A stretch of 64,000 nucleotides of DNA from Anaeromyxobacter sp. Fw109-5 (GCF_000017505.1 NC_009675.1:1984001-2048000); one strand, 5' to 3'; positions 19,225-29,206 are shown, numbered from the stretch's first letter. Notes: a model not told the origin generated them from the sequence alone. Program-made: numbers and translations.

Positions 19225-20808
19225 TCACTCGGTCGTCGCGCGTCCGTACCGGCGCGTCGCGGCGATGGCGCGGTCGAGGGAGTCGCGCGTGCAGAACCAG
19301 GAGAAGACGCCGCCCGAGCGGCGCGCCGCTTCCAGCGCCGGCAGCGCGGCGGGATCCCGCAGCTCCCCGAGGAGCTCGGCTGCCGCCCGGCGCCCGCCGC
19401 AGCTCTGCGCCCCCGCGAGCAGCCTCCGGGCGTTCTCTCTCAGCGCGGCGTCCTCGCGCAGGGCTGGCCGCGCGGCGAGCGCGACCCGGTAACGCCGCAG
19501 GCACTCGCCGCTCGCGCCGCGCGCGCAGGCGACGTCGCCCCGCAGCTTCTCCACGAGCGGGTCGCCCGCCCTGGTCCGCGCGGCGGCGTCGAGCTTCGTC
19601 CGCGCGTCCGCGAGCCGGCCGTCTGCGATGAGCGAGGCGACCTCGTCCGCCAGCGCGGCGTCGCTCGGGGGGAGGCAGAGAGCGGCGAGCGCGAGGGCGG
19701 GCACCGCGACGAGCGCGGCGCGGCGGAGGGGGGGCGACAGGGAGGAAAGCGGCAGCGCGCGGGAGAGGGAGGACAGGAGCGCGCGGAGGGTCAACGACGC
19801 CGACGGGGACGCAGAATCGCTTGCCCGCGCGTGGTGAGCCTGTCGAACCAGGAGCGGAATGGGGTCCGCTGTCGCGGGCGGGGTCGGGGTCGGGGTCGGG
19901 GTCGCGGTCGTGGTCGCGGTCGAGGTCGAGGTCGAGGTCGGGGTCGGGGTCGGGGTCGGGGTCGAGGTCGCGGTCGCGGTCGAGGTCGGGGTCGGGGTCG
20001 GGGTCGGGGTCGAGGTCGAGGTCGCGGTCGGGGTCGGGGTCGGGGTCGAGGTCGAGGTCGAGGTCGGGGTCGGGATCGCGATCGACGCCGCAGCCCGGCG
20101 AATCGACTCTGCGATCTCCGCGGCCGAGGCCCTCCTCCAGCGACGGCGCGAGAGGCCGCGCCCGACGGCCTGCGCGAGCCCGGGGGGCAGGTCGGGCCGG
20201 AGCACGGCGAGCGGCACCGGGTCCTCGTGGATCACGCGCCGGATGACCTCGAGCGGCGGGTCCGCCTGGAACGGCGCACGTCCGGCCAGGAGCGCATAGG
20301 TCATCGCCGCGAGGGCGAACGCATCGGCGCGGCGCGACGGCGGACCGCCGCGGAGGACCTCGGGGGCGGTGTAGCCGAGCGCAGCGGCAGTGCCTGGATC
20401 CGCCGGATCCCAGTGAGGCGGCAGCTCGCCGTCGACCAGCACGACGGTGCCGTCCTCCGAGACGATGGCGTTCCCGGGGTGGAGGCGCCCGTGGGCGCGC
20501 CCGCGCGCCTCCAGCGCCACGACCGCGGCCCCGAGCGCGTCGGCCAGGGCGAGCGCGGACCGGTCGTCGGGCGGGGCGGCCAGGAGCTCCGCGAGCGAGC
20601 GCCCCGGCGCGAAGGGGCGGAGGACGTGCGCCGTCCCGTCGTGCTCGACGAGCGTCGGGACCACGCCCGCGCGCGTCCGCCGCTCCAGCGCGCGGCGCGG
20701 GACGCCCGCCCGCCGCAGCACCGAGAGCGTGCCGGCGGCCACCGAGCGGACGAGGTAGGTGTGGCCGGGGCGCAGCACCGAGACGATCTCGTGGCCGGAG
20801 ATGGGCAT
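19225..20808 (-). CDS. Membrane-anchored kinase-fold protein (probable pseudokinase) with Pro/Thr repeat linker
   Basis: A 527-residue protein. Residues 1-240 have a Ser/Thr kinase fold with a YTAPEVL activation-loop motif and a helical C-lobe. The catalytic HRDLKPEN is HGRLHPGN (106-113), so the catalytic Asp and Lys are Arg108 and His110. DFG is DGE (126-128), and no clear VAIK lysine is seen. It is therefore probably catalytically dead. Residues 245-313 are almost only Pro, Thr, Ser and Ala, encoded by a GGGGTC-type hexanucleotide tract. A single membrane helix (about 364-379) and a C-terminal helical-repeat domain follow. It starts 8 bp after the stop of the BcsC-like gene upstream and is likely co-transcribed with it. 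Confidence 0.8.
   Translation of the reverse strand: MPISGHEIVSVLRPGHTYLVRSVAAGTLSVLRRAGVPRRALERRTRAGVVPTLVEHDGTAHVLRPFAPGRSLAELLAAPPDDRSALALADALGAAVVALEARGRAHGRLHPGNAIVSEDGTVVLVDGELPPHWDPADPGTAAALGYTAPEVLRGGPPSRRADAFALAAMTYALLAGRAPFQADPPLEVIRRVIHEDPVPLAVLRPDLPPGLAQAVGRGLSRRRWRRASAAEIAESIRRAAASIAIPTPTSTSTSTPTPTPTATSTSTPTPTPTPTSTATATSTPTPTPTPTSTSTSTATTTATPTPTPTPPATADPIPLLVRQAHHARASDSASPSASLTLRALLSSLSRALPLSSLSPPLRRAALVAVPALALAALCLPPSDAALADEVASLIADGRLADARTKLDAAARTRAGDPLVEKLRGDVACARGASGECLRRYRVALAARPALREDAALRENARRLLAGAQSCGGRRAAAELLGELRDPAALPALEAARRSGGVFSWFCTRDSLDRAIAATRRYGRATTE
19831..19862. repeat. Stem-loop repeat copy with GAGCCTGTCGA loop (inside kinase-like gene)
   Basis: The block GAGCCTGTCGA is flanked by a short complementary stem (TGGT and ACCA). 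It is read in frame as part of the segment LLVRQAHHAR of the pseudokinase. The same loop occurs at 62049-62081 with a different stem. Confidence 0.5.
19870..20076. repeat. In-frame hexanucleotide repeat encoding the Pro/Thr linker
   Basis: About 207 bp of GGGGTC, GAGGTC, GCGGTC and GTGGTC units. Read on the minus strand these give Pro-Thr, Ser-Thr and Ala-Thr dipeptides (residues 245-313 of the kinase-like protein). The 6-bp unit keeps frame whatever the copy number, so length variation would change only linker length. The G-rich strand is the plus strand, which is the template strand for this gene. Confidence 0.9.
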
Positions 20809-20816
20809 CGCGGAAC

Positions 20817-22895
20817 CTACGGGAACAGCAGCGCCGCGGTGAGCGACGCCTCGAGCCGCGTGTGCACGTCGGCGACGCGTTCCGCCCGCGCCTCGCCGCC
20901 GAGCCGCAGGCGGGCGCCGGCGCGGTGGGTGAAGCCGAGCCGGGCGTCGCCCCCGAGGCGAACACCCCCGCCCGCGCCGCCGACCAGCTGGAGCGCCGGC
21001 CCCGCGTCGACGGTGAGCCAGCCTCGCGCGCCGGCGTCCCGCGTCGCGGCGAGCCGGGGGGAGACCGAGGCGAAGATCGGCGGGGAGAACAGGTGCGGGG
21101 AGCGGTCGAGCGGATCGCCGGTCGCGGAGAGATCGCGCGCGTGGTGGACGAGCTCCGCGGCGGCGCCCGCCGCGACCGTCCAGCCGCCGGCCCGCCGCAG
21201 CGCCCGGTCGAGCCGTCCGCCTGCGCCCGCCACCAGCACCGGATCCAGCCCCCGCGCGCTCACCGCCCCGGCGCGCGCTGCGAGCTCGAGGCGGGTGTCC
21301 CGGCCCCGCGCGAGGCGCAGCTCCGCGACGGTGTCGCTCGCCGCGCCCGCGAGCTCCTCCCCCACGCGCTCCCCGGCATAGGCGCGGAACGAGTCGAGTC
21401 GCGCCGCGCGGCGCACGTTCACCGACAGGACGCCGTCCTCCGACGAGCGCTCGACGCCGAGCGCGCCGGAGAGCGCGGCGCCCTCGGGGCGGACGCCGTC
21501 GAGCCCGCCCTCCATCCGGAGCCGCGTACCCGGCGAGGGCCGCCACTCGCCGCGGATGGCGAGCGTCGCCCCGGACGCCCGGGCGTCGCCAGGTCCGCGG
21601 GCGGTGGCCACCCCGGCCTCCACCGCGCTCGAGGTGAACGGCGTCGGCTCGGCCTCGCCGGAGACGAACGCGGCGGTGCGCGACAGCTCGGCTCCGCCCG
21701 GCTGCGCGAGCGCGCGCGCGCCGCCGCCCACGGCCGGTTCGCGGCCGGCGCGGAGGGAGCGCTCCAGCGCGGCGACGTCCGGTCGCGCCGGGCCGTACCG
21801 CCCGGCGAGCTCGCCGTGCGCCAGCGCCCGATCGGCGTCGCCCTTCCAGGCGTAGGCGTGCGCGAGCCCCCGGTGCGCCTCGGCGTCGTTCGGCGCCTCG
21901 GCGAGCACCGTCTCGTAGACGGCGATGGCCTGCGCGTTCGTCTCCTCGCGCGCCCCCAGGACGCGGGCCAGCCCGACGCGGGCGCGGCGGGAGCGGGGCT
22001 CCGCTCGCAGCACCGCCTCGTACTCGCGCCGGGCGGCGTCGTGGGTCGCGCGATCGGCGGCGAGCAGCTCGGCGAACTCGAGGCGCGCCTCGGTGGAGGG
22101 ACGGAGCGCGAGGGCCCGCGCGTACCCGGCGCGCGCCTCGTCACGGCGGCCGGCGCGGGCGAGCGCGCGGGCGTGGCCGAGCCGCAGCTCGGGGTCGTCC
22201 GGATGGCGCTCGAGGAGCGCCGCGTGGCGCGCCGCCGCCTCGCTCGCGCGGCGGGGATCCTCGGCGACGATGCGGGCGAGAGCGCGCGCGGCCCGCTCGT
22301 CTCCCGGGTTCGCCGCGAGGCGCCGCTCGAGCTCGCGGATCGCCTCCGCCCTGTGACGCCGGTCCCACAGCAGGAGCTTCAGCCACTCGTCGCGGAGCTT
22401 CGCGTCCTCTGGGGCCGCGGCGAGCAGCGCGCGGTACTCGTCGAGCGCCTCGTCGAGCGTCCTGCGATCGCGGCCCAGCAGCCGCGCCAGCTCACGGCGG
22501 CGCGCGGGATCGTCGCGGCGCGCGAGCCCCATCCGAAGGTACTTCACGGCGTCCCCCGACCGGTACGCGTACCGCGACCACTGGAGGAGGCGCGCCTGCT
22601 CGAAGGCGAGCTGCCAGTCGTCGGGGAACCGCCCGAGGTGCCGGTCGAGCTCCGCCACGGCGCGATCGGTCTCGCCGTTCCGGAGCAGCGCCCGGCAGAG
22701 CTCCCGCGAGGCCTCGCGGCCGTTCGGATTCAGCTCCAGGGCCTTGCGCCAGGCCTCGATCGCCGCCCCGTAGTTCTCGATGCGCATGTTCGCGCGGCCC
22801 CGCGACAGGTACCAGGTCTCGGCGAGGCCGGCGTGAGCGGTCAGCGGGAGCGCGAGCAGCGCCGCGACGAGCGCGACGCGGAGAGGGCGAGGCAT
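20817..22895 (-). CDS. BcsC/PgaA-like TPR and beta-barrel exopolysaccharide export protein
   Basis: A 692-residue protein with a signal peptide (1-22, ending AHA). Tandem tetratricopeptide repeats follow at about 25-400, several with the A-x-A-LELNPN or ALRPSTEARLEFA pattern. The C-terminal 230 residues or so are strand-rich and barrel-like. TPR scaffold plus C-terminal outer-membrane barrel is the layout of BcsC and PgaA, which carry polysaccharide across the periplasm and outer membrane. It lies 34 bp downstream of the synthase gene, in the same direction, which supports this role. It is shorter than enteric BcsC (about 1150 residues), having fewer TPRs and a smaller barrel. Confidence 0.78.
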   Translation of the reverse strand: MPRPLRVALVAALLALPLTAHAGLAETWYLSRGRANMRIENYGAAIEAWRKALELNPNGREASRELCRALLRNGETDRAVAELDRHLGRFPDDWQLAFEQARLLQWSRYAYRSGDAVKYLRMGLARRDDPARRRELARLLGRDRRTLDEALDEYRALLAAAPEDAKLRDEWLKLLLWDRRHRAEAIRELERRLAANPGDERAARALARIVAEDPRRASEAAARHAALLERHPDDPELRLGHARALARAGRRDEARAGYARALALRPSTEARLEFAELLAADRATHDAARREYEAVLRAEPRSRRARVGLARVLGAREETNAQAIAVYETVLAEAPNDAEAHRGLAHAYAWKGDADRALAHGELAGRYGPARPDVAALERSLRAGREPAVGGGARALAQPGGAELSRTAAFVSGEAEPTPFTSSAVEAGVATARGPGDARASGATLAIRGEWRPSPGTRLRMEGGLDGVRPEGAALSGALGVERSSEDGVLSVNVRRAARLDSFRAYAGERVGEELAGAASDTVAELRLARGRDTRLELAARAGAVSARGLDPVLVAGAGGRLDRALRRAGGWTVAAGAAAELVHHARDLSATGDPLDRSPHLFSPPIFASVSPRLAATRDAGARGWLTVDAGPALQLVGGAGGGVRLGGDARLGFTHRAGARLRLGGEARAERVADVHTRLEASLTAALLFP

Positions 22896-22929: not shown

Positions 22930-25900
22930 CTAGGCAGCAAGGTATTCATGCGCCGGTCTCTCCGGGAGCGGCACCGGCAGGTAAGCGAGCCCTGCCCGCC
23001 ACACTCCCGGGACGACCCGGCGCGCGTGCGCGACGCGCGCCCAGCGGATGCCGTCGGCGAGCAGTACCGGGAGGTCCTCCCGGGGGGCGCGACCCAGGAA
23101 CAGCGCGCCGAACCCGCCCGAGGAGGAGTCGACCACGAGCCCGCGGACGCGTCCCCGGGCACCGACCCAGGCGAGCGGGCGCAGCGAGGGGCGTCTCGGC
23201 GCGAGCCGGCGCCGGGCGTGGAGCGGGAGGAACGCGCGCGCGATCCCGGCCAGCAGCTGGAGCGCCATCGCGAGCTGGCTCCGCGTGCGCGCATCGTGCG
23301 CCCCGGAGAAGGCCTCCTCGGAGGAGAAGGCGATCCGCACGAGCGCGCGGCGAGCCTCGGCGGGGAGCCCCTCGAACGCCAGCCCGGCGCGGGTCGCGCC
23401 CCGCACCTCCTCGCGCCAGACGACGCGCGCGCGGACGCGGAGCGGTTCGGGGGCCGAGAAGGCGACCTCCACGGCGGGGGGCAGCGCGGCGCTCGCGGGG
23501 AGGCGCAGGCCGGCGCCCGTCGTGGAGAGGTCCACGGTCTCCGCGCAGAGCGACAGCGCCGGCGCCTCGACGCGGACCGGCACGCGCCGGCGCACGCGCT
23601 CGTCCTCGCGGCGCTGCGGGCGCTCCCACGCCACGAGCAACGCGGCGAGCACCGCCGCCAGGTTCGAGCCCGCCCAGAACAGGTTGAACGCGTAGGCCTC
23701 GACCTCGATCCCGAACGCGACGAGCTCGAAGGCGCCCTTCGCGAGCGCCACCCCCGCGAGCGCCGCCGCGGCGAGCGTGAGCCGCGACGACGAGGCGTCG
23801 AAGCGCCGGCGATCCGAGACGATCCCCTTGGGCGTCACCTTGAAGCCCAGGCTCTTCGGCAGGAGCAGGTCGAGCGTCGCGCGCGCCAGCGGGAAGGCCA
23901 CGGCGGCCTCGTAGACGGTGCCCCACAGCAGGCGCGGCCACCCGGGCAGCAGCGCGTTCGCGGCGAGCGTCGAGAGCAGGAGGTGCGGCGCCAGGTAGGC
24001 GAGCAGGACCGGCAGGTCCGCGAACAGCGGGTGGAGGTGGAACAGCAGGTACCAGAGCGGCGTGAGGAAGAACGCCACGCGCGCGAGCGGGAAGAAGAAG
24101 TACCAGAGCGAGGCGAAGTAGCCGACGCGGTGCCGGAGCGGGAGCCCGCGCTCGAGGAGCGGGTTGTCCTTGAAGAAGATCTGCAGGCACCCGAGCATCC
24201 AGCGCCGCCGCTGGACGAGGTAGCTCTGCACGTTCTCGGCGGAGAGGCCGACCGCCAGATCCTCGTCCACGAACGCCGAGCGCCAGCCCTTCGCGTGGAG
24301 CTTCTGGCTCGTGTGGATGTCCTCGGTGATGGAGAGCAGGTTGAACCCGCCCACGGAGGCGATGGCGGCGCGCCGGAACACCGCGCCCGAGCCCACGAAG
24401 AAGGCGCCGCCCCAGCGATCGCGGCCTGCCTGGATGGCGTGGTTGAAGAGGTCGGCCTCGTTCGGCACGGCCGGACCGGTTCCCAGGGCCCGCTGGAAGA
24501 CGTCGGGGTTGTAGAAGTGGTGGGGCGTCTGGACGACGCCCATGCGCGGCTCGCGGAAGTGCGGGACCGTCCGCTCCAGGAACGCCGCGCACGGCACGTG
24601 ATCGGTGTCGAACACGACGACGAGGTCGCCGCTCGTCAGCGACAGCGCGTTGTTGAGGTTCCCCGCCTTGGCGTGGCGCTTCGGGCCGGGGACGTACCGC
24701 GCGCCGTGCTCCGCGGCGAGCCGCGCGACCGCCTCGCGGTGCGAGTCGTCGCACACGTGGACGGTCTTGCGGGGATGGCGCATCGCCATGCAGGCGGCGA
24801 GCGTCTTGTCCAGGATCTCCAGCGACTCGGAGTAGATGGGGACGAAGACGTCGACGGAGGGGACCTCCTCGTCCGGCGCGAGCGGCGCGGGCGGCTCCCG
24901 GCGCCGGCGCGAGACGCCGACCTGGACGGCGAGGAGCAGGACGGTCGAGAACGCGTACGCCTCCGCCGCCAGGAGCGAGAGGCTGATCACCGGCCCGAGC
25001 GGCTCGACGAAGTTGAGGGTCTCGCGGGCGCGCCACCCGAGGTAGCGCGCGGAGAGCGCGATCGCGAGCCCGAGCAGCCCGGCGCGGGCCCACGTGAAGC
25101 GGCGGGCGAGCGGGGCGAGCGCGAGGGCGGCGAGCACGGGGACGAGGGGGAAGCGCTCCCGGAACGGCCCCCAGTCGATCCCGAGCAGGAACGCGAGCGG
25201 CTCGTCGTATCGCCGCGCCACGCCGAGCTCGAGCGCGCGGCCCAGCCAGAGCCAGTTGTGCAGGTAGTACGGGGTCGCCTCGCCGGCGAGGGCGCGCTCG
25301 AAGAGCGCGTCGAGCCTCCCCGATCGCAGGTCCGAGGCGAGCCCGCGGTCCTCCACCGCCGCGAGCGCCGCGATCGACGCCATGTGGGGCTGGCCGTCGA
25401 GCTCCGACAGCGCGCGGCCGCCGGTGGTGTAGCGGTCGCGGATCCTCCCCTCGGCGCGGAAGGTCTCGCGTGGGAACGCGAGCATGCGCGCGCGCAGGTC
25501 CGCCTCTCCCCGCCGCCCGAACCAGGCCGCGTCCAGCGCGACTCGCCAGAAGAGCGGGACGGAGTCGTAGCCGAACGTCTGCGCGGGGCCGCCGCCGGGC
25601 TTGTCGAGCAGGAGCGCCCCCGAGCGCGAGTCCACCCAGATCCGCTCCGGCGGCAGCACCACGCCCCGGTCGAAGTACAGGAAGCGGAGGATCTCGTAGC
25701 TCCCGCGCACCAGCTCCTTCCACGGGTGCGCCGGGTCCACCCCGGCGAAGACCTCGTACGCGTACGGCGCGAGGTAGGCGACGTGGATCGTCGGGTAGCG
25801 CTCGCGAGGCGCCCAGTTCCCGCCCGTCGGCAGGAAGCGGCCGCCGGCCTGGATCACCTCGCGCTCCCAGACGTCCGCGAGGATGCGCCGCGCCTCCTCG

Positions 25901-26319
25901 AGGTAGCGCGCCTCGCCGAAGCGCCGTGAGGCGAGCACGAGCGCGAGGGCGGTGTCCTGGTCCGCGTCCGTCGCCGCGTTGCGGTCGAGGACGCGGTCCT
26001 TCCACTTCCACGCGAGCAGCTCGTCGTCGCGGACCTGCAGGTTCTCGCGCGTCCAGCGCCAGACCTCGTCGAACGTCGCGCGGTCGCCGGCCCACACCGC
26101 GCGGAGCAGCGCGTACGACTGGCCCTCGGAGGTGGTGATGCCCGCCTCGTCGTGCGCGACGACGCGCCCGCGGTCCACGTGGGAGTAGCGGTAGAAGCTC
26201 CAGAGCGCCGACAGCTCGTCGTGCGCGCGCGCCCGCGCGTCGCGCGCGGCGCTTCGCTCGCCGTGGCCGCAGGCGAGGAGCACCGAGATGGGGAGGAGGA
26301 GCCAGGTGGAGACCCGCAT
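22930..26319 (-). CDS. Fused GH8 endoglucanase and cellulose-synthase-like GT2 with two PilZ domains
   Basis: A single uninterrupted 1129-residue frame. Residues 1-17 look like a signal with lipobox-like VLLAC. Residues 30-370 are a GH8 (BcsZ-type) domain with TSEGQSYALL (general acid E65) and the signature ATDADQDTALALVLA (D118, D120). Membrane helices lie at about 391-435 and 450-478. Residues 487-720 are a BcsA-type GT2 domain with D524-D525, DTD (571-573), TED (665-667) and QRRRW (703-707). Further helices reach about residue 900. The C-terminus has PilZ 1 (RVPVR 912-916, DLSTTG 930-935) and a second PilZ-like domain (RLAPR 1038-1042, DSSSGG 1064-1069), so c-di-GMP control is expected. 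Synthesis of a beta-glucan with a tethered periplasmic glucanase is the likely role. No BcsB is seen in the window. Confidence 0.85.
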   Translation of the reverse strand: MRVSTWLLLPISVLLACGHGERSAARDARARAHDELSALWSFYRYSHVDRGRVVAHDEAGITTSEGQSYALLRAVWAGDRATFDEVWRWTRENLQVRDDELLAWKWKDRVLDRNAATDADQDTALALVLASRRFGEARYLEEARRILADVWEREVIQAGGRFLPTGGNWAPRERYPTIHVAYLAPYAYEVFAGVDPAHPWKELVRGSYEILRFLYFDRGVVLPPERIWVDSRSGALLLDKPGGGPAQTFGYDSVPLFWRVALDAAWFGRRGEADLRARMLAFPRETFRAEGRIRDRYTTGGRALSELDGQPHMASIAALAAVEDRGLASDLRSGRLDALFERALAGEATPYYLHNWLWLGRALELGVARRYDEPLAFLLGIDWGPFRERFPLVPVLAALALAPLARRFTWARAGLLGLAIALSARYLGWRARETLNFVEPLGPVISLSLLAAEAYAFSTVLLLAVQVGVSRRRREPPAPLAPDEEVPSVDVFVPIYSESLEILDKTLAACMAMRHPRKTVHVCDDSHREAVARLAAEHGARYVPGPKRHAKAGNLNNALSLTSGDLVVVFDTDHVPCAAFLERTVPHFREPRMGVVQTPHHFYNPDVFQRALGTGPAVPNEADLFNHAIQAGRDRWGGAFFVGSGAVFRRAAIASVGGFNLLSITEDIHTSQKLHAKGWRSAFVDEDLAVGLSAENVQSYLVQRRRWMLGCLQIFFKDNPLLERGLPLRHRVGYFASLWYFFFPLARVAFFLTPLWYLLFHLHPLFADLPVLLAYLAPHLLLSTLAANALLPGWPRLLWGTVYEAAVAFPLARATLDLLLPKSLGFKVTPKGIVSDRRRFDASSSRLTLAAAALAGVALAKGAFELVAFGIEVEAYAFNLFWAGSNLAAVLAALLVAWERPQRREDERVRRRVPVRVEAPALSLCAETVDLSTTGAGLRLPASAALPPAVEVAFSAPEPLRVRARVVWREEVRGATRAGLAFEGLPAEARRALVRIAFSSEEAFSGAHDARTRSQLAMALQLLAGIARAFLPLHARRRLAPRRPSLRPLAWVGARGRVRGLVVDSSSGGFGALFLGRAPREDLPVLLADGIRWARVAHARRVVPGVWRAGLAYLPVPLPERPAHEYLAA

Positions 26320-26447: not shown

Positions 26448-27311
26448 CTACTTCCGCCGCACGGCCGCGACGACGTTCGGCACCGGCCAGGCGTCGCGGT
26501 TCTCTGCCTGCGGGACGTGCTCGAAGCCGCCGACCCACTCGTGCTGGCGCCCGCCGCCGCGCACGAAGAGCTGCGCCTCCGGGCCACCCTCCACGTACAT
26601 CGCCTGGCGCAGCTCGATCGGCAGCGCGAGCAGCGCGTTGACGAGCTCGTGGACCGGCCAGGGCGTGCGCGCGTGGATGAACAGCACGCGCCCCTTCGCG
26701 TCCACGCCGATGGCGGCCGCCGAGAAGCGCCGCGCCGACGGGGCCCACACGTTCTTCCGGTCGCAGGAGACGAGGCGGATCGACTGCACGAGGGTGCCGT
26801 AGGTCTGGGCGGCGCGCTCGAGGTCGTCGCAGTCGCGGTCGATGATCCGGACCGGCGAGGCGCCGCGGGCGAGGGGATCGAACGCGAGCACGGAGCGATC
26901 CTTGGAGACGCGGCGCTGGTTCACGTGGTGCCGCGTGCGCATCAGGGACACGCTCGTCCGGTAGTCCTCCTGGTACATGCTCGCGTTGATCGCGGCCGAG
27001 GCGCCCGCGCGCTCGGCCCACGCGCGCGCGGTGCGGAGCGTCCCCTCGCCGGGCGCGGAGGCGTTGAGCAGCTTCAGCTCGAAGCGGGCGGGATCGATCC
27101 GCACGACCGCGATCGGGCGCGCCTCCTCGCCGGCGGGCGGCCCGTCGAACAGCCCCATCTCCAGGCCGGGCTCGAGCGTTCGCCAGCCACTCGCTTCCGC
27201 GCCGTGCGCGGGGCGCGATGACGCCGGGCCGCTCCGGGCCGCGGCCGGTGCCGGGGTGCGCGCGGGCGCGGCGGAGAGCGTGAGGAGCAGGGCGGCGGCC
27301 GCCGCCTTCAT
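26448..27311 (-). CDS. Secreted NAGPA-type phosphodiester glycosidase domain protein
   Basis: A 287-residue secreted protein. I use the ATG at 27311 because GAGGGGG sits 8 bases upstream and the protein then starts with a signal peptide ([17 protein letters not shown]). The NAGPA/DUF2233 domain motifs are present: INASMYQ near residue 111, a VLAFDP block, [20 protein letters not shown], and the C-terminal [13 protein letters not shown], a variant of the usual LDGGGS. The mammalian homologue removes GlcNAc from phosphodiesters, and bacterial members are found with exopolysaccharide genes. It lies just upstream of the cellulose-like synthase in the same direction, so a role in that polymer is plausible. 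Confidence 0.78.
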
Positions 27312-27562
27312 GGCGACACCCCCTCGCATTGAGCTGCTGCGGCGCACGCTGCCTGCCTGCGCGGGGCAGACTTCTCCCTGCGCTGCTCGACGTGCCTTCC
27401 AGGCACGCCTGCGCTGCTCGGTCGTCGTGTGCCCCGCTCGGCGACGGCATCGTGTGCCTCGCGACGCTCAACGCAAGCGGGTGGCGCCATCAGACGCATC
27501 GCGCCATTGTCGGGCCCGTTCGAGACGGTGACAAGACCGGGGGGCGTGCGAGATTTCGTGCC

Positions 27563-29206
<1,644 letters not shown>

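Follow-up and report, generated by a model that had tools for sequence, protein, structure and literature searches.

In Anaeromyxobacter sp. Fw109-5, a single gene joins a GH8 endoglucanase to a BcsA-type GT2 and a PilZ domain, and it lies next to a gene for a BcsC-like exporter. We consider it probable that the fusion is a single-chain synthase-hydrolase and that, with its exporter, it forms a two-gene system for beta-1,4-glucan synthesis and export that works without BcsB, is probably controlled by c-di-GMP and carries a trimming cellulase at the exit of the synthase. The reading is built on computed observations of gene structure, domain folds, conserved residues, exporter linkage, the missing BcsB and a single fusion origin on the tree. 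Why cellulose secretion requires a cellulase is an old puzzle. With the fusion, the cellulase would be held in a 1:1 ratio at the exit of the synthase, and BcsB, a required partner elsewhere, would be dropped, so that the site and mode of action of the hydrolase on the nascent chain, as well as the purpose of BcsB, become testable in a two-gene system.

The window analysed here is a stretch of 64,000 nucleotides (NC_009675.1:1984001-2048000) from a genome of 5,277,990 bp assembled as a single contig. The first-pass annotation had placed an uninterrupted 1129-residue frame at 22930-26319, silent on its strand; the frame is confirmed on the minus strand, where it runs intact from 26319 to 22930 and ends in a stop. 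The plus-strand reading of the same interval was rejected, having a stop inside and not being coding-like. The intact GH8 acid residues described in that annotation (here assigned as E65 and D118/D120, with D252 as the base), its GT2 motifs (D524-D525, D571-T-D573, T665-E-D and Q703-RRRW) and its membrane helices between the two domains and after GT2 (hydropathy and AlphaFold model) were likewise borne out. To these are now added an N-terminal lipobox/signal, PilZ, the downstream BcsC-like gene and a genome in which BcsB is undetected. From the N-terminus, the order is signal/lipobox, GH8 beta-1,4-glucanase, three TM helices, BcsA-type GT2, four TM helices, PilZ and a PilZ-like beta-domain (Table 1). 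Pfam matches to GH8 (residues 39-315, E 7e-33), to two GT2 models (487-773, E 9e-25 and 4e-23) and to PilZ (902-998, E 5e-16) are all above the curated cut-offs. The C-terminal beta-domain reaches 13.2 bits against Pfam PilZ, under the cut-off, but its motif and strands are suggestive, and it is therefore kept as PilZ-like. The YLAA tail at the very C-terminus (window 22930-22990) is conserved in Anaeromyxobacter, the sister genus and genome G110, and is absent from most other lineages.

Table 1. Features of the fusion locus, with coordinates counted from the first nucleotide of the window.
Feature	Position	Strand	Basis
Ser/Thr kinase-like gene	19225..20808	-	Pkinase 29.4 bits, just under cut-off
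BcsC-like exporter gene, 692 aa: signal peptide, TPR solenoid, 16-strand outer-membrane barrel	20817..22895	-	model, PDB match, neighbourhood
GH8-GT2-PilZ fusion gene, 1129 aa	22930..26319	-	translation, Pfam, AlphaFold model, Foldseek
Signal sequence with lipobox, residues 1-17 (LLAC, Cys17)	26269..26319	-	sequence
GH8 endoglucanase domain, residues 39-315; E65, D118/D120, D252	25375..26205	-	Pfam PF01270, Foldseek, conservation
Three TM helices before GT2, residues 392-467	24919..25146	-	hydropathy, AlphaFold model, RsBcsA alignment
GT2 synthase domain, residues 487-709; DD, DTD, TED, QRRRW	24193..24861	-	Pfam, alignment
C-terminal membrane part, residues 728-897: four TM helices and interface helix	23629..24138	-	hydropathy, model
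Gating loop FKVTPKG, residues 826-832	23824-23844	-	sequence motif
PilZ domain, residues 902-998; R904xxxR908, D930xSxxG935	23326..23616	-	PF07238 E 5e-16, conservation
C-terminal beta-domain, residues 1043-1113, PilZ-like DSSSGG motif	22981..23193	-	model strands
NAGPA-type phosphodiester glycosidase-like gene, upstream	26448..27347	-	PF09992
Phosphoglucomutase pgm, divergent, peripheral	27563..29206	+	TIGR01132 897.5 bits, above cut-off

The remaining neighbours of the locus are peripheral. The kinase-like gene, transcribed in the same direction as the fusion, is a neighbour in some Myxococcota only; within it, 34.7 copies of the 6-bp repeat GTCGGG (window 19871-20078) encode a Thr/Pro/Ser-rich linker. 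The NAGPA-type gene is found at Anaeromyxobacter loci only, and pgm could possibly supply UDP-glucose.

The catalytic residues of the fusion are all conserved. On alignment with unfused BcsZ, E65, D118, D120 and D252 fall on its catalytic residues, E65 and D252 being the catalytic Glu and Asp (E55 and D243 in E. coli), and all four are invariant in every alignment row with sequence there. The same holds for the GT2 motifs DD, DTD, TED and QRRRW, and the gating loop FxVTxK, found in the window protein, is invariant where present. The PilZ motifs RxxxR and DxSxxG are both present (R904/R908, D930, S932 and G935), and among 24 rows the arginines of R904xxxR908 are kept in 22-24, D930 in 23 and S932 in 17; the motif is thus largely retained overall, with Ser932 missing in 7. 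The fused GH8 is the sole GH8 found in the genome. The AlphaFold model (mean pLDDT 84) matches RsBcsA 4p00 (E 6e-39, TM 0.80) and E. coli BcsZ 9b87 (TM 0.80) in Foldseek. Among solved proteins, the nearest relatives of the fusion are the BcsA enzymes of E. coli and Rhodobacter and, for GH8, CMCax, BcsZ and CelA.

Among NCBIfam models, the nearest family is TIGR03030, that of UDP-forming cellulose synthases, with 518.8 bits over profile positions 41-698, whereas the same GT2 part scores far lower against PgaC (64 bits) and NodC (34 bits). The predicted product is a beta-1,4-glucan made from UDP-glucose. The match to TIGR03030 falls under its curated cut-off of 699.1 bits, however, and that to the BcsZ equivalog NF008305 reaches 103.4 bits against a cut-off of 299; as both scores lie below the equivalog cut-offs for BcsA and BcsZ, product and specificity may differ from those of the canonical enzymes. 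It could be that a short, mixed-linkage or otherwise processed glucan is made and sized by GH8, in the manner of the pseudomonad GH17-GT2 cyclic-glucan synthases. We regard this as unlikely, though some observations speak for it: the layout of signal peptide, glycosidase, membrane part and GT2 is shared with the Orphan/NdvB family (PMC10237404), lichenases and chitosanases are among the GH8 relatives, and the GT2 domains form a long-stemmed clade apart from canonical BcsA, marked by DCD changed to DTD and FFCGS to FFVGS (V, rarely A, for C). Against it stand the nearest characterised matches, which are cellulose synthase and BcsZ/CMCax, and the conservation of a polysaccharide exporter whose fold is that of BcsC. 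GH8 is moreover an inverting family and ill-suited to transglycosylation.

The position of the hydrolase relative to the membrane is suggested by the N-terminus and by the helix count. The N-terminus, MRVSTWLLLPISVLLAC, is a lipobox whose Cys is kept in Anaeromyxobacter and several Myxococcota, while Nitrospira and other fusions carry a plain Sec-type signal instead; one or the other is found in most inspected fusions. Canonical BcsA has eight TM helices, four of them before GT2, and a cytoplasmic N-terminus, whereas hydropathy and the AlphaFold model give the fusion three before GT2 and four after, with a predicted exported N-terminus. Consistently, the RsBcsA alignment begins past the first 36-49 residues of that protein, i.e., after TM1. 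Loss of the first BcsA helix leaves an odd-numbered membrane part and would switch the N-terminus from inside to outside, as an exported GH8 needs. From the signal and the model we infer that GH8 lies in the periplasm, which lends predictive support to the earlier proposal that the glucanase is tethered at the exit side of the synthase.

The preferred reading can be set out as a sequence of steps. The signal sequence would send the N-terminal GH8 to the periplasm, lipid-anchored in Anaeromyxobacter, while seven TM helices would form a BcsA-type channel, GT2 and PilZ lying on the cytoplasmic side. GT2 would polymerise UDP-glucose into beta-1,4-glucan under c-di-GMP control, and the chain would leave the channel right below the tethered GH8, which may cut misdirected or over-long chain before the BcsC-like outer-membrane protein takes up the product with its TPR arm. 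The pair of fusion and exporter would accomplish this without BcsB. In E. coli, secretion depends on BcsZ acting as a cellulase, a task that an unrelated cellulase can take over, and it has been proposed that BcsZ clears misdirected chain (PMC11379886). Trimming of the emerging chain by the fused GH8 would be consistent with this requirement and with the conserved catalytic residues.

It could also be imagined that GH8 is cleaved off after export and acts in the periplasm like an ordinary BcsZ, free or lipid-anchored, so that the fusion would serve only to couple expression. The Anaeromyxobacter lipobox would indeed anchor a released GH8. We nevertheless think this improbable, since the one-frame fusion is retained across distant phyla, there is no obvious cleavage linker, and dN/dS across the GH8/membrane junction is about 0.18 against A. 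terrae, denoting purifying selection (values for more distant pairs are not relied on, because synonymous change is hard to estimate in this G+C-rich genus).

The first-pass annotation had noted the absence of BcsB from the window, and a PF03170 search extends this to the entire genome, where none was found. Among 28 further genomes searched in the same way, several of the fusion-bearing ones being incomplete MAGs, 26 have the fusion and a single one of these, a Fibrobacter MAG (G207), also has BcsB; its gene sits elsewhere in the genome, away from the fusion locus (L064, G207:C114). The positive controls were E. coli and two genomes with unfused relatives, G011 and G046, whose canonical bcsA-bcsB-bcsZ-bcsC clusters gave strong PF03170 scores. 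Since BcsB is held indispensable in known Gram-negative cellulose synthases (PMC9693552), a BcsB-less synthase needs proof, and this counts against the preferred reading. It has to be considered that GH8 mainly replaces BcsB, serving as a lid and guide for the emerging chain and as a dock for the TPR exporter, hydrolysis then being of secondary importance. GH8 is predicted at the usual position of BcsB, for which only one of the tested fusion genomes has a gene, and the N-terminus of E. coli BcsC binds BcsB (PMC11379886), so that a new partner would be needed. A plain lid would be expected to lose its catalytic acid and base, whereas both are invariant, and we judge such a primarily structural role to be rather unlikely.

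BcsA-like synthases without a recognised BcsB were also seen outside the fusion family. N. moscoviensis, which has the fusion and in which BcsB is undetected, encodes a second, unfused BcsA-like synthase (G201:C1:4538017-4540074, L076). At two other Nitrospirota loci (L074 4803-10975 and L075), an 845 aa BcsA-like synthase adjoins a BcsG phosphoethanolamine transferase (PF11658, E 4e-141), and BcsB was not recognised near it.

The exporter gene starts 34 bp past the fusion stop, and its model (pLDDT 92) combines a TPR solenoid with a 16-strand barrel. In the PDB, this model is matched best by the cryo-EM structure of E. coli BcsC (9b8a), and the BcsC channel 6tzk was also matched. Pfam BCSC_C (PF05420) is above its cut-off in the orthologues at L055 and L059, and no match above it was found in the genome of the window. 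The exporter gene follows the fusion at every locus with downstream sequence, across phyla. A hidden third component was rejected: in an all-against-all comparison of neighbouring frames, only fusion and exporter are shared across phyla. One Myxococcota genome (G189; L026 6918-11903, minus strand, also L054) goes further, with a 1661-residue frame that comprises GH8, GT2, PilZ, TPR and outer-membrane barrel, which is direct genomic evidence that fusion and exporter act jointly. Between PilZ and TPR, this frame contains a signal-peptide-like stretch, ALLPALLVMGVCSSAHAEG, which suggests cleavage or an internal start. Taken more broadly, and only tentatively, the locus may represent a widely spread, undescribed two-gene secretion system for cellulose or a cellulose-like polymer in which the fused GH8 takes the exit-side role of BcsB and also trims, and which this genome encodes, from hydrolase and synthase to c-di-GMP sensor and exporter, as one frame.

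That an assembly or sequencing error joined two genes is extremely improbable. Nothing was found in its favour, and the same architecture occurs in independent complete genomes, e.g., those of N. moscoviensis (NZ_CP011801) and A. oryzae (NZ_AP025591). Single-frame orthologues, two of them truncated by contig ends, were found in 8 of 8 other Anaeromyxobacter genomes searched, in the sister genus, in a second family within the same order and in a distant Myxococcota genome; full-length ones in many genomes are 48-90% identical to the window protein, the nearest named relative found being A. terrae (~90% protein identity). When GTDB species genomes were scanned with GH8 and the membrane part alone, 28 loci were returned, 25 of which are single-frame fusions into GT2. 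These 25 are spread over Anaeromyxobacter, other Myxococcota, Nitrospira (including the complete N. moscoviensis genome) and MAGs labelled Gammaproteobacteria/Chromatiales, Desulfosudis, Fibrobacter, Bdellovibrio and KSB1; many of the non-isolate matches are MAGs. The first-pass annotation had proposed such a search as a check, and the outcome is one gene in many genomes, neither an artefact of joined frames nor a family whose orthologues are always two genes. The preferred reading also predicts a glucan-based matrix in Anaeromyxobacter and in nitrite-oxidising Nitrospira, e.g., N. moscoviensis. Within Nitrospirota, the fusion is present in 12 of 296 sampled genomes; one copy (G219:C2:97245-100556) contains an in-frame TAG, a possible sign of decay or a sequencing error.

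All 22 fusions included in a GT2-domain tree, drawn without the S. meliloti pSymB mixed-linkage glucan synthase as comparator, fall on one side of a branch with 100/100 support and a long stem, which fits a single fusion event whose product then spread vertically and possibly also horizontally. Unfused BcsA relatives from Myxococcota and Nitrospirota show 35-44% identity and lie outside the clade; on both counts they were ruled out as unfused orthologues. The one BcsZ-like match that belongs to a canonical locus (L062) is distant as well, and in the genomes searched no separate-gene relative of the GH8 and membrane region was found above about 41% identity.

Compared with the Bcs system (BcsA, BcsB, BcsZ and BcsC), the locus retains the GT2, gating loop and PilZ of BcsA, the GH8 of BcsZ and the TPR-barrel exporter of BcsC. 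It differs in that BcsZ, a separate soluble periplasmic protein there, is fused in-frame with BcsA into one polypeptide with one N-terminal TM helix fewer, in lacking BcsB, in its shorter exporter and in family scores below the equivalog cut-offs. Fusions of bcs genes are on record as BcsAB in several lineages and BcsZC in Zymomonas (PMC7112194, PMC9693552); they too join neighbouring subunits, but here it is BcsZ and BcsA that are joined, and BcsB is missing rather than fused. The pseudomonad Orphan/NdvB proteins also combine a signal peptide, a periplasmic glycosidase, TM helices and a cytoplasmic BcsA-like GT2 in one chain, although with a GH17 transglycosylase and with RxxxR reported absent (PMC10237404), whereas the fusion has RxxxR and an adjacent BcsC-like exporter, and Pfam finds in it only GH8 and no GH17 domain. 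The clostridial CcsZABHI system resembles the locus in that its cellulose synthase is served by a dedicated endoglucanase and a BcsB orthologue is lacking, but its endoglucanase is a separate GH5, it has a CcsB analogue and it works in a Gram-positive envelope (PMC7710045). In the literature searched, which did not extend to subscription papers, no published BcsZ-BcsA fusion was found, and a further search returned only the GH17-GT2 precedent; the BcsZ-BcsA join thus appears to be new, while BcsAB, BcsZC and GH17-GT2 fusions are already known. A second, unrelated fusion of a membrane glycosyltransferase with GH8 was observed in an Andersenbacteria MAG (L060 2303-7050), where a PMT-type enzyme is joined to GH8 (871 aa) beside a GT2 protein (726 aa).
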